From: Clostridia bacterium UC5.1-1C12
Lineage (GTDB): Bacteria; Bacillota_I; Bacilli_A; Erysipelotrichales; Erysipelotrichaceae
Length of the DNA stretch: 64,000 bases
Reading direction: 5' to 3'
Assembly: GCA_001305055.1 (NCBI GenBank)
Contig: BBZX01000008.1
Location: 62,001-126,000 of the forward strand
Part shown: positions 41,004-48,581 of the stretch, piece after piece
Position numbering within the stretch: the first letter of the stretch is position 1
Layout of the letters: each line of letters begins with the position of its first letter
Notes under the pieces: generated by a model
Databases searched by the model: none
The model's input: only the letters and a program-made list of their open reading frames with translations
What the model was told of the DNA's origin: nothing
Made by a program: the position numbers and the translations under genes

Positions 41004-41017
41004 TTGAAACGTTTCAA
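41004..41017. promoter_or_regulatory. LacI operator 1
   Basis: Perfect 14-bp palindrome TTGAAACGTTTCAA, 22 bases before the -35 box. Confidence 0.8.
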
Positions 41018-41025
41018 ATTGATTG

Positions 41026-41056
41026 TTGACAACGCTTACATTTGTGTTATTATAAT
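41026..41056 (+). promoter_or_regulatory. Promoter with overlapping cre site
   Basis: TTGACA and TATAAT with 19 bases between (or ATTATA at 17). TGACAACGCTTACA at 41027-41040 matches 13 of 14 positions of the cre consensus TGWAARCGYTWNCW and covers the -35, so CcpA should repress on glucose. Confidence 0.65.
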
Positions 41057-41060
41057 ATTG

Positions 41061-41072
41061 TGAAACGTTTCA
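41061..41072. promoter_or_regulatory. LacI operator 2
   Basis: TGAAACGTTTCA palindrome at the predicted transcription start, 57 bases (centre to centre about 56) from operator 1. Two sites allow looping. Confidence 0.8.
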
Positions 41073-41094
41073 ACTAATCGAGAGGGGGTATTGA

Positions 41095-45736: not shown

Positions 45737-46549
45737 CAACGATGAATGTTCAAAGTGAGCTGGGCATGATGACAATGGAAATGCTTAAACCTGATGACGG
45801 GTCTGCGGGTGATTTACGGACTTGTATTATCTTTTTCTTCGGCGGTGGTTTTGTAAAGCGTAACCTGAAGCATTTTTCAGCGGCAAGCTGAATATTTCAG
45901 AAGCCTGGGTGTAATTTGTATCCTTGCCGATTATCATTTGGCATCCGAAGGTGATGGCTTGTCTGCCTGTTTTGCCGATGCGCAGGCAGTGATGAATGAG
46001 GTGTATGAGAAGGCTGAGCAATTAGGCATTGACCGGCATAAAATCGTTGTCTGCGGCGGTTCAGCCGGCGGTACGTTAGCGTGCTGGTGTTCATTGAATT
46101 CATCCATCCTGTGCTCAGGTATTGTTTAATCCGGTCTTATTTTTTGGTGAGAAAAACATCAAGAAGATTACTCCTAAAAAATCATGGTTCAGATCAACGA
46201 AGAAACGGCTGAGTTAAATAAGATTCAAACTTATAATCAGGCATGGGGTGAAGAATTCAAGCTATATCCGCAGCATTTCTCAGCGTATCATAAGCTGGAT
46301 CATGCCGCTATTCCACCAACGCTGATTCTGCAGGGCAGTAATGATCCCATCGCTTACTTTGGTGTGATTCTGTTTCATCAGAAAGCGTTGGAATTAGGCA
46401 ATGATTGTCATTTAGTGCTGTATCAGGGTGAAGGACATGGCTTTTTCAATTATGACAAAATCGATCATAAGTTCTGTTACGAGGATACATTGAAACAGAT
46501 GGAAGTATTTTTAAGAGAAAGAAACTTAATTCAGAGGACAATAAAATGA
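45733..46549 (+). CDS. Acetyl-esterase-like alpha/beta hydrolase (several frameshifts)
   Basis: About 270 residues. IIFFFGGGFVKRN replaces the HGGG oxyanion motif, CGGSAGGTLA is the nucleophile elbow (GxSxGG), QGSNDPIAYFG supplies Asp, and GEGHGFFNY the His: a hormone-sensitive-lipase/Aes-type fold. Frameshifts lie near 45885, 46127 and 46185. The start overlaps the sulfatase stop, and the stop overlaps EIIB. In this operon it probably removes an acyl, most simply acetyl, group from the imported sugar. Because several shifts occur, true decay is possible. Confidence 0.7.
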
Positions 46550-46848
46550 GAAAAATCGTATTATTATGCGCGGCCGGTATGAGTACCAGCATGCTGGTGA
46601 CAAAAATGAAAAAATATGCCGAAAGTGAAGGGTATGACTGTGAGATCGGTGCTCATGCCGTATCGGAAGCAAAGCTTTACGGCGCCGAGGCTGACATTGT
46701 TTTACTGGGGCCGCAGGTTCGTTTTAATCTGGCGAAGGTAAAGGAACAGTGTCCTAACTGTCCGGTGGAAGCTATTGATATGGCTGCTTATGGCGCGATG
46801 GACGGTGCTAAGGTGATTCGTCGGGTCAAAGAAGTGCTGGGTGATTGA
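46546..46848 (+). CDS. PTS EIIB, lactose/cellobiose family
   Basis: 100 residues. KIVLLCAAGMSTSMLV has the phosphocysteine at Cys8 in the exact CxxGMSTS context of cellobiose EIIB. ADIVLLGPQVRF and VEAIDMAAYGAMDG complete the fold. Cytoplasmic phosphate carrier between EIIA and the EIIC of this operon. Start overlaps the esterase stop. Confidence 0.93.
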   Translation: MRKIVLLCAAGMSTSMLVTKMKKYAESEGYDCEIGAHAVSEAKLYGAEADIVLLGPQVRFNLAKVKEQCPNCPVEAIDMAAYGAMDGAKVIRRVKEVLGD

Positions 46849-46849
46849 A

Positions 46850-47167
46850 ATGGAAGGCATTGAATTAATCAGTTTTCAGATTATCAGCGCGGTAGGCACT
46901 GCCCGCTCGATGTATATTGAAGCCATTCAGGCCGCCAAGGCAGATCATTTTGATGCGGCTGAAAAGCTGTTGGAAGAAGGACAGGAGCTTTTTGTTCAGG
47001 GACATCACGCGCATGCTCAGCTGATTCAAAATGAGGCGAACGGTGAAAAAACTGAATTTGCTTTATTGCTGATGCATGCTGAGGATCAGCTGATGAGTGC
47101 GGAAGCTTTTGGCATCTTAGCTCAAGAGTTTGTCGATGTATATAAGAAAATGAAGGAGAACGTGTAA
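46850..47167 (+). CDS. PTS EIIA, lactose/cellobiose family
   Basis: 105 residues. All-helical EIIA with the active His in GHHAHAQLIQNEANG; AEKLLEEGQELFVQ and LLMHAEDQLMSAE are family hallmarks. It takes phosphate from HPr and passes it to the adjacent EIIB. The ATG follows the EIIB stop by one base. Confidence 0.92.
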   Translation: MEGIELISFQIISAVGTARSMYIEAIQAAKADHFDAAEKLLEEGQELFVQGHHAHAQLIQNEANGEKTEFALLLMHAEDQLMSAEAFGILAQEFVDVYKKMKENV

Positions 47168-47168
47168 A

Positions 47169-48581
47169 ATGAGCCGATTACCGGAAAATTTTTTATGGGG
47201 CGGTGCTGTTGCCGCCAATCAGCTTGAAGGTGCATGGAATGTTGATGGCAAGGGAATCAGTACAGCTGACTGCATGAGTGCCGGTGCTGTGGATAAGGAA
47301 AGAATCTACACCGATGGTATTCAGGAGGGCGTTTACTATCCGAATCATGAGGGCATTGATTTCTATCATCATTATCAAGAAGATATCGCGATGTTTGCGG
47401 AAATGGGCTTCAAATGCTTCAGAACATCGATTGCCTGGACGCGCATCTTTCCGCAAGGGGATGAAAAAGAACCGAATGAACTGGGACTGCAGTTCTATGA
47501 CCGGGTTTTTGATGAATGTCTGAAATACGGGATTGAACCGGTAGTCACGATCAGCCATTATGAAACACCCTATGGCTTGGTGAAGAAATACGGCTCTTGG
47601 CGCAGCCGTTCAATGATTGATTTCTATATGCGTTTCTGTGAAGTGATTTTTAATCGTTATAAAGATAAAGTAAAATATTGGATGACCTTTAATGAAATTA
47701 ACTGCATCTCTTTGCATCCTGCGATACCGGCGGGTATTCGTATCGGCAGTGATGAAAACTTCCATCAAGTGACGCTGCAGGCTGCTCATCATATGCTTGT
47801 GGCTTCGGCAAAAGCAGTCCGATTGGGACATGCAATCAATCCGAATTTTAAAATCGGCATGATGATGCTTTATCCGCAGATTTATGCGGAAACATGCAAT
47901 CCGCTTGACGCGCTGAAACAAATGCAGGCAATGGATATGCAGTATTATTACAGCGATGTTCAGGTCCGTGGGTTTTATAGCTCAAAGGCAAAGAAGATGC
48001 AGAAGGCATTGGGGGTTGCATTAGCCGCTGAGCCTGAAGATGATGCGATCCTTCGTGAGGGCAAGGTTGATTATATTGGCTTCAGTTATTATATGAGTAT
48101 GGTCGCGTCGGCGGATTTGAATAAACAAGTCAGCGGCGGCAATATGCTGAAAGGAATTAAAAATCCATATCTGAAAGCTAGTGAATGGGGCTGGCAGATC
48201 GATCCTGTTGGCCTGCGGTTAACCTTAAACAATCTCTATGACCGTTATCAGCTGCCATTGTTCATTGTGGAAAATGGCTTGGGCGCGGTGGATCAAATTG
48301 ATGCTGACGGTTCTATCTGCGATGATTACCGTATTGAATATTTAGGTGAGCATATCAAAGAAATGATAAAAGCTGTTGATGAAGACGGTGTTGAGCTGAT
48401 GGGTTATACGCCTTGGGGCTGTATCGACTTAATTTCTGCCGGCACAGGTGAAATGAAAAAGCGTTATGGTTTTATCTATGTTGACCGTGATGATGAAGGG
48501 CATGGCACTCTGGCACGCTCAAAGAAAAAGAGCTTTGAGTGGTATAAGCAGGTGATTGCTTCGAATGGTGAGAAGCTGTAA
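47169..48581 (+). CDS. GH1 6-phospho-beta-glycosidase
   Basis: 470 residues, intact. FLWGGAVAANQLEGAWN is the GH1 start, TFNEIN carries the acid/base Glu, VENGLG the nucleophile Glu, and the C-terminal GTLARSKKKSFEWY the Lys/Tyr phosphate-binding set of 6-phospho-glycosidases. It cleaves the imported disaccharide phosphate. Last gene of the operon, two bases after EIIA, followed by a terminator. Glucose versus galactose preference cannot be decided here. Confidence 0.93.
   Translation: MSRLPENFLWGGAVAANQLEGAWNVDGKGISTADCMSAGAVDKERIYTDGIQEGVYYPNHEGIDFYHHYQEDIAMFAEMGFKCFRTSIAWTRIFPQGDEKEPNELGLQFYDRVFDECLKYGIEPVVTISHYETPYGLVKKYGSWRSRSMIDFYMRFCEVIFNRYKDKVKYWMTFNEINCISLHPAIPAGIRIGSDENFHQVTLQAAHHMLVASAKAVRLGHAINPNFKIGMMMLYPQIYAETCNPLDALKQMQAMDMQYYYSDVQVRGFYSSKAKKMQKALGVALAAEPEDDAILREGKVDYIGFSYYMSMVASADLNKQVSGGNMLKGIKNPYLKASEWGWQIDPVGLRLTLNNLYDRYQLPLFIVENGLGAVDQIDADGSICDDYRIEYLGEHIKEMIKAVDEDGVELMGYTPWGCIDLISAGTGEMKKRYGFIYVDRDDEGHGTLARSKKKSFEWYKQVIASNGEKL

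Follow-up and report, generated by a model that had tools for sequence, protein, structure and literature searches.

Why should two sulfatases that lack signal peptides be encoded among the genes of a sugar phosphotransferase system (PTS)? The question is raised by eight genes of Clostridia bacterium UC5.1-1C12 (GCA_001305055.1, contig BBZX01000008.1, positions 62,001-126,000; this whole stretch of 64,000 nt is hereafter the window, and coordinates refer to it). All of them lie on the + strand at 41095-48581, in the order sulfatase 1, EIIC, small membrane protein, sulfatase 2, esterase, EIIB, EIIA and a family 1 glycoside hydrolase (GH1). This order and common direction had been proposed from the letters of the DNA, in what we call the sequence-only reading, and are confirmed by the open reading frames together with Pfam and NCBIfam matches. 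On balance, we favor the view that the operon uses the PTS to import and phosphorylate a sulfated beta-glucoside, which is desulfated and deacylated in the cytoplasm and then cleaved by GH1.

The Pfam matches in the window comprise Sulfatase (PF00884) at two places, PTS_EIIC, PTS_IIB, PTS_IIA, Glyco_hydro_1 and an alpha/beta hydrolase. The permease is of the lactose/cellobiose (Lac) family: EIIC (42567..43805, +) exceeds the family cut-off (TIGR00410, 249.3 vs 236 bits), and EIIB (46546..46848, +; PF02302, 74.8 bits) and EIIA (46841..47167, +; PF02255, 108.2 bits) exceed those of Pfam. EIIC stays below the equivalog cut-offs for cellobiose, lactose and diacetylchitobiose (249.3 of 434.45, 134.3 of 614.4 and 93.3 of 760 bits, respectively). 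The last gene (47169..48581, +) exceeds the cut-off of the 6-phospho-beta-glucosidase model NF007154 (PRK09589; 714.2 vs 624 bits) and carries a Ser/Ala pair, S306 and A424, instead of Asn/Trp. In an alignment this is the pair of gluco-type enzymes, and it corresponds to S311/A431 of 4GPN in the available part of the source (PMC10360150). The residues thus favor a phospho-sugar of gluco over galacto configuration, although the same part of that source describes dual-specificity GH1 enzymes with the identical pair (PMC10360150). The gene is followed by a terminator-like stem-loop with a T run (48582..48618, +; -11.4 kcal/mol, z -3.0, 3 of 200 shuffles as good).

An immediate concern is the state of the reading frames, on which the sequence-only reading was silent. 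In the window as given, sulfatase 1 (41095..42554, +; pieces 41095-41478 and 41466-42554), sulfatase 2 (44305..45738, +; main pieces 44305-44916 and 44823-45638) and the esterase (45735..46549, +; last piece 46184-46549) are each distributed over at least two frames. For comparison, we used an intact relative, region L114 of genome G147, which has an EIIC of 98% identity, the one near-identical match among 272 genomes of its family. The two regions are 92.6% identical over 19.9 kb, and all eight genes are intact in L114, where MATE and LacI genes precede them and an ATPase follows; relative to L114, the last residues of the window EIIC are out of frame. If the interruptions were real, the pathway would be decaying and lost in this organism, as three broken genes out of eight might suggest. 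Breaks also occur between genes and in the P-type ATPase downstream of the operon (48726-51006), which is split into three; 22 of the 26 gaps separating the window from L114 are single-base, and 13 fall in homopolymers of three or more, which hold 18% of the bases. Over window positions 34530-54415 there is one gap per ~770 bases, mostly single-base, and the frames there are probably broken by sequence error. The dN/dS values of the in-frame pieces range from 0.04 to 0.20 across the eight genes (sulfatases, 0.06 and 0.12; esterase, 0.16, from 116 codons only; EIIC and GH1, 0.04; membrane protein, 0.20), and the interrupted genes are at 0.06-0.16. Because of this purifying selection and the homopolymer-rich, single-base pattern of the gaps, we rejected decay, which appears very improbable, read the breaks as sequence error and take the operon to be functional.

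The sulfatases and the esterase were consequently characterized in L114, where their lengths are 486, 477 and 267 aa, respectively. Sulfatase 1 contains the motif CMPAR and sulfatase 2 CVPSR, and the sulfatase domain begins at residue 1 in one and residue 4 in the other, which leaves no room for a signal peptide; both the CxPxR sites and the missing leaders had been claimed previously. The proteins show the sequence features of formylglycine (S1) sulfatases (PF00884, CxPxR and the sulfatase fold), and this activity is predicted. The first structural hits of sulfatase 1, whose fold was examined on the structure of the 95% identical protein P0001, include the GlcNAc-sulfatases BT1918 and BT4656; the fold is also that of phosphonate monoesterases, at similar Z. 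The alpha/beta-hydrolase match of the esterase (Abhydrolase_3) is weak on the window piece and clear on the intact relative. A metagenome-assembled genome (MAG) of Oscillospiraceae (L058:4224-12962) encodes a sulfatase 1 relative preceded by a short esterase-like match; ~6 kb behind it lies a relative of sulfatase 2 (52% and 39% identity on the two pieces).

These data raise a further question: does the combination of permease and sulfatase recur? EIIC was searched for in 964 genomes: 272 from the family of a Solobacterium MAG (L014, G006), 397 from that of a Hungatella MAG and 295 from the order that includes Enterococcus ratti, at E cut-offs of 1e-60, 1e-50 and 1e-50, respectively, and with at most six candidates scored per genome. 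The searches listed 42 + 7 + 51 = 100 matches, and 30 + 7 + 30 = 67 loci were examined; the 33 matches outside this set are all at 36% identity or less, and all 19 at 48% or more are included. A sulfatase lies within 1.5 kb of EIIC in 19/19 loci at 48% identity or more and in 2/48 loci at 34% or less. Eighteen of the 19 come from the Solobacterium family and one from the Hungatella family. Several are near-copies, so the independent cases are fewer, and four (L094, L097, L109 and L116) repeat clusters also found by a sulfatase scan (L029, L014, L015 and L068). EIIC, membrane protein and sulfatase 1, the core set, occur together in 15 of the 19. In a maximum-likelihood tree of EIIC, 18 of the 19 and L006 form one clade of 19 rows (support 100/99); of the remaining EIIC with sulfatase linkage, three group in a second clade and one is an outlier. 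Only three changes of the sulfatase label are needed, compared with a mean of 19.6 after shuffling and none of 500 shuffles as low. Three of the 23 labelled rows (L002, L006 and L011) were found via the sulfatase and stand outside the counts above; L029 and L094, short through an internal stop, were left out, and L081 enters as L114. Recurrence in other genomes, for which the sequence-only reading had proposed a search, is supported, and a gene order produced by chance was rejected on the basis of this linkage and the intact copy in L114.

The habit is not restricted to one permease type. PF00884 has 12 hits in G147, one of which is a leader-bearing LtaS-like protein without CxPxR (L200). The others are 11 signal-less CxPxR sulfatases, ten within 6 kb of PTS genes and eight within 500 bp, next to systems of the Lac type (L114 twice, L198), the Man type (L115 twice, L197, L199) and the Gat type (L194 twice, and L195 at a distance of 5 kb across intervening genes). 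The eleventh (L196:2863-11235) stands beside a CUT1 ATP-binding cassette (ABC) transporter and lacto-N-biose phosphorylase, and this locus may act on sulfated lacto- or galacto-N-biose. Other arrangements deserve mention: a Man-type EIIA-B-C-D set is flanked on either side by one signal-less sulfatase (L115:1095-6986), and two neighboring Gat-type clusters each contain a sulfatase (L194:5129-15279). A further cluster combines a sulfatase, a Man-type PTS, the epimerase NanE and a DUF3604 protein, possibly for a sulfated amino sugar (L197:9093-15339).

In the other family genomes (115 drawn), 59 further sulfatases were collected, with a PTS gene within 3 kb in 25 and an ABC sugar transporter within 6 kb in eight. 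Nineteen proteins of the relative served as queries for PTS and ABC genes, and further ones may have escaped detection. The set consists of 54 chosen places with open frames of 451-561 residues plus same-stretch hits passing the filter; three places were excluded because of a contig edge or stop (G216:C1, G272:C274 and G230:C249) and one as already included (G102:C30). Three of the counted sulfatases have the motif CGPCR and may fall outside the carbohydrate sulfatases. Frames of at least 588 residues were taken as LtaS-type; 20 such loci served as controls, 15 of which passed the filter, and a sixteenth control comes from G147. None of the 16 leader-bearing controls has a PTS gene nearby. The sulfatase domain starts no more than 15 residues from the frame start in 64 of 70 sulfatases, and a crude hydrophobicity test, which is not a signal-peptide predictor, found no strong leader in the other six (highest 15-residue mean 1.6) and one in 16/16 controls. 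The operon is probably one case of a wider family habit in which cytoplasmic sulfatases are served by Lac-, Man- and Gat-type PTS permeases.

Another important component is the small membrane protein (43847..44311, +), for which a Pfam scan gave no match, whose protein family has no Pfam entry of its own, and which the sequence-only reading suspected of belonging to the system. A homologue is present in 15 of the 19 EIIC loci. By profile search, the protein occurs in 23 of the 272 family genomes, beside PTS genes in every case: the 15 strong matches all adjoin an EIIC of the sulfatase-linked clade, and the eight weak ones (35-69 bits) adjoin a Lac-type EIIA in 8/8 and EIIB in 7/8, with no sulfatase or EIIC in their 1.5 kb flanks. 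The latter loci (L185-L192), in which a distant homologue accompanies EIIA without EIIC in these flanks, may serve several permeases. Since the weak matches adjoin PTS genes without a sulfatase, the protein is tied to the PTS, not to the sulfatases, and we infer that it is an accessory subunit of the permease; the earlier suspicion is supported to this extent. Its predicted model (mean pLDDT 82) comprises three membrane helices, a beta domain and a final helix, and has weak matches to solved structures. E. coli YobD (DUF986), encoded right after manXYZ, is likewise a small inner-membrane protein beside a PTS. Kinship with DUF986 (PF06173) is only hinted at by sequence comparison: the window protein does not reach the cut-off (0 families), its family reaches DUF986 weakly (best E 0.0025, 2 of 44 members), and a profile comparison of the family with YobD alone gave no link. 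A DUF986 (YobD-family) hit over the cut-off is found in another sulfatase-PTS cluster of G147, the second of the two Gat-type clusters mentioned above (L194:14815-15279).

Regulation of the operon was also considered. A LacI-family repressor gene (39945..40976, +) with a terminator-like stem after it (40962-40984) precedes the operon, and orthologues of 46-50% identity lie beside EIIC and sulfatase 1 in six other loci (L002, L014, L015, L167, L168 and L169). Motif scan and conservation identify two LacI operators, TTGAAACGTTTCAA (41004..41017, +) and GTGAAACGTTTCAA (41060..41073, +), as the sequence-only reading had proposed; two matches were reached in 4 of 100 shuffles. The operator sequence is a common LacI type; therefore, the weight lies in its conserved place and not in the word. 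The pair is kept across genera in L114, L014, L015, L167, L169 and L002, with an upstream operator identical in all of these except L015, where it has one mismatch. Between the operators lies a promoter-like site of the sigma-70 type (TTGACA-16-TATTAT with TG before the second hexamer; 41026..41053, +; 11 of 12 matches), a call that rests on this position because the scan overall is not above chance (19 sites vs 20.7 expected). Its first hexamer is overlaid by a cre-like sequence, TGACAACGCTTACA (41027..41040, +), which was called with the catabolite control consensus. The cre site claimed earlier is thus matched by a sequence in that place, and a match of this kind is present in 21 of 100 shuffles; yet the site is kept in L114 and in L168, which otherwise keeps one operator. 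In our preferred reading, the operon is under LacI control and probably also under catabolite control.

Formylglycine sulfatases depend on a radical SAM maturase, and a search for an anaerobic sulfatase-maturating enzyme had been proposed as a check. Among the relatives, to which this check applied, a maturase over the cut-off was found in 10 of 12 hand-picked genomes with sulfatase 1, whereas that of the closest relative is just below. A radical SAM gene resembling the L006 maturase lies near a sulfatase in L002, L006, L011, L153, L157 and L169; the NCBIfam scan of radical SAM genes covered those of L002, L006 and G147. The L006 cluster, from a Clostridiaceae MAG (L006:6091-15241), is compact: a TauE-type exporter, GH1, EIIC and sulfatase, then two other genes and the maturase. 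With the radical SAM maturase and TauE of L006 as queries, no match was found in L114.

How could these parts work together? Lac-family PTS uptake phosphorylates the incoming sugar; therefore, a signal-less sulfatase would most simply act on a sulfated phospho-sugar or on a sugar released from it. In the proposed pathway, EIIC, EIIB and EIIA, with the small membrane protein as an accessory part of the permease, would import a sulfated beta-glucoside (a disaccharide or an aryl glucoside) with the sulfate still on and phosphorylate C6 of its non-reducing sugar. Since this C6 must be free for the phosphate, the sulfate is expected elsewhere. In the cytoplasm, the esterase would take off an acyl group, and the sulfate would be removed by the two formylglycine sulfatases after their maturation by a radical SAM enzyme encoded elsewhere; GH1 would then cleave the 6-phospho-beta-glycosidic bond. 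The central claim of the sequence-only reading, that signal-less sulfatases are coupled to a Lac-family PTS and a 6-phospho-beta-glucosidase, is supported by the gene set, by L114 and by the recurrence. We regard it as possible, at somewhat less than even chances, that this represents a general and undescribed mode of using sulfated glycans: a PTS-fed intracellular sulfatome with three kinds of PTS, a Lac-family EIIC clade dedicated to sulfated glycosides, a new accessory membrane subunit, and phosphorylation of the sugars before their desulfation as phospho-sugars.

Several observations weigh against the proposed pathway and its wider setting. In the window as it stands, the frames of both sulfatases and of the esterase are interrupted. 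Both sulfatases remain far below the NCBIfam equivalogs of known sulfatases; in the intact relative, the scores for choline-sulfatase and arylsulfatase PRK13759 are 93.7 of 433.45 and 100.6 of 481 bits for sulfatase 1, and 170.6 of 433.45 and 170.7 of 481 bits for sulfatase 2. EIIB (86.7 of 110 bits, TIGR00853) and EIIA (83.9 of 136.95 bits, TIGR00823) fall below the NCBIfam cut-offs, as does the maturase of G147 (335 of 349.45 bits, TIGR03942). Twelve of the 15 core loci, some on short contigs, have no L114-like EIIA, EIIB or GH1 nearby. The esterase does not belong to the wider core: it was found in none of 22 other loci compared, and near sulfatase 1 only L038, L048 and L058 gave matches, which are short and partial. 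For 34 of the 59 sulfatases outside the closest relative, no PTS gene was found within 6 kb. Finally, of the best 80 sulfatase 1 relatives from a scan of named genomes, eight lie within 6 kb of a PTS gene and 14 near an ABC sugar transporter, and neither was found near the best match (L001, the same locus as L251; 71%). The sulfatase 1 family is therefore not PTS-specific; it is used with several transporters, with a strong PTS link in one EIIC clade and in this bacterial family.

Such observations leave room for other explanations. The PTS could import an unsulfated beta-glucoside, since GH1 and the three EII proteins would by themselves form an ordinary operon of the cellobiose type, and the sulfatases could cleave, for example, sulfate or phosphate diesters of cytoplasmic metabolites, the neighborhood reflecting a shared niche. 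The fold common to phosphonate monoesterases and the sulfatase 1 relatives without a PTS are compatible with this idea, which we nevertheless consider unlikely: the linkage depends on the EIIC subfamily, sulfatases are linked to three different PTS types, and the CxPxR motifs are accompanied by maturase-like genes nearby.

Import of a sulfated compound leaves the nature of the substrate to be weighed. It could be a sulfated monosaccharide or an aryl or thio glucoside with the sulfate on the aglycone, glucosinolate-like for example, with no disaccharide in most relatives. The core loci in which EIIC, membrane protein and sulfatase occur and no GH1 was found near would fit, as would the gluco type of GH1 and the naming of a 6-phospho-beta-glucosidase in the available part of a review of gut glucosinolate metabolism (PMC6767122). 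This operon encodes GH1, as do the clusters L002, L006, L159, L161 and L198, and two distinct sulfatases and an esterase suggest more than one decoration; we therefore hold this substrate to be rather doubtful. To a similar degree, we doubt the sulfated host mucin or glycosaminoglycan (GAG) disaccharide suggested by the sequence-only reading. The gene set of L196 suggests that the relative uses host-type disaccharides, and GlcNAc-sulfatases are among the first structural hits of sulfatase 1, but the gluco-type residues of GH1 argue mildly against a galactoside (mucin) or a uronate (GAG). A sulfated beta-glucoside remains the substrate that we prefer. A PTS-coupled route in the cytoplasm would make sulfated mono- or disaccharides a private food: they would enter whole and lose their sulfate within the cell, so that no desulfated sugar is shared with neighbors. 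The EIIC clade offers a sequence marker, open to testing, for permeases that take up sulfated sugars, and the conserved membrane protein is named as a PTS partner.

How does this operon compare with known systems? Lac-family cellobiose and chitobiose PTS operons with a GH1 6-phospho-beta-glucosidase are a known type and share EIIA, EIIB, EIIC, GH1, a repressor and a catabolite site; the window operon adds two sulfatases, an esterase and the membrane protein, and its EIIC does not reach their equivalog cut-offs. Gut sulfatases have been studied mainly as exported Bacteroides enzymes acting on polymers. BT1918 (S1_46) and BT4656 (S1_11), exported enzymes of glycan-degrading loci, have the same fold and formylglycine motif at ~20% identity. 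In the accessible part of one survey of genomes, mucin-desulfating GlcNAc-6-sulfatase genes are confined to Bacteroidetes and Akkermansia (PMC5583593). The accessible text of a second source places GAG desulfation in Bacteroides before the import of monomers and reports no characterized GAG loci in gut Firmicutes (PMC9067506). It also describes PTS uptake of GAG disaccharides in the Proteus vulgaris chondroitin operon, which has a putative sulfatase gene with PTS genes, and in the streptococcal hyaluronan PTS; these differ in having polysaccharide lyases and an unsaturated glucuronyl hydrolase, and a Lac-family EIIC is not stated in that text (PMC9067506).

The closest precedent is the Streptococcus pneumoniae island SPH1922-SPH1930, which, in the accessible parts of two reports, brings together a Lac-type PTS, a sulfatase, a modifying factor and TauE (PMC3283741, PMC3302838). 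According to the same passages, its deletion left growth on the sugars tried unaltered, no sulfatase activity was detected, and mutants were less fit in mice (PMC3283741, PMC3302838). Like the window operon, it clusters Lac-family EIIC, EIIB and EIIA with a sulfatase; in contrast, it is described with two EIIC, a ROK regulator, a linked sulfatase-modifying factor, TauE and a ComA- or epimerase-like protein, and an epimerase is also present in L197. Neither the modifying factor nor the TauE exporter was found among the operon genes, in the window or in L114, and GH1, an esterase, LacI and the small membrane protein are not named in these accessible parts. The novelty seen by the sequence-only reading is reduced accordingly: the linkage of PTS and sulfatase is already in print for pneumococcus, while the intracellular route for sulfated glycans is largely undescribed, and the literature searched yielded no functional study of a PTS-coupled sulfatase. 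The system may help with the unsolved pneumococcal PTS-sulfatase island.

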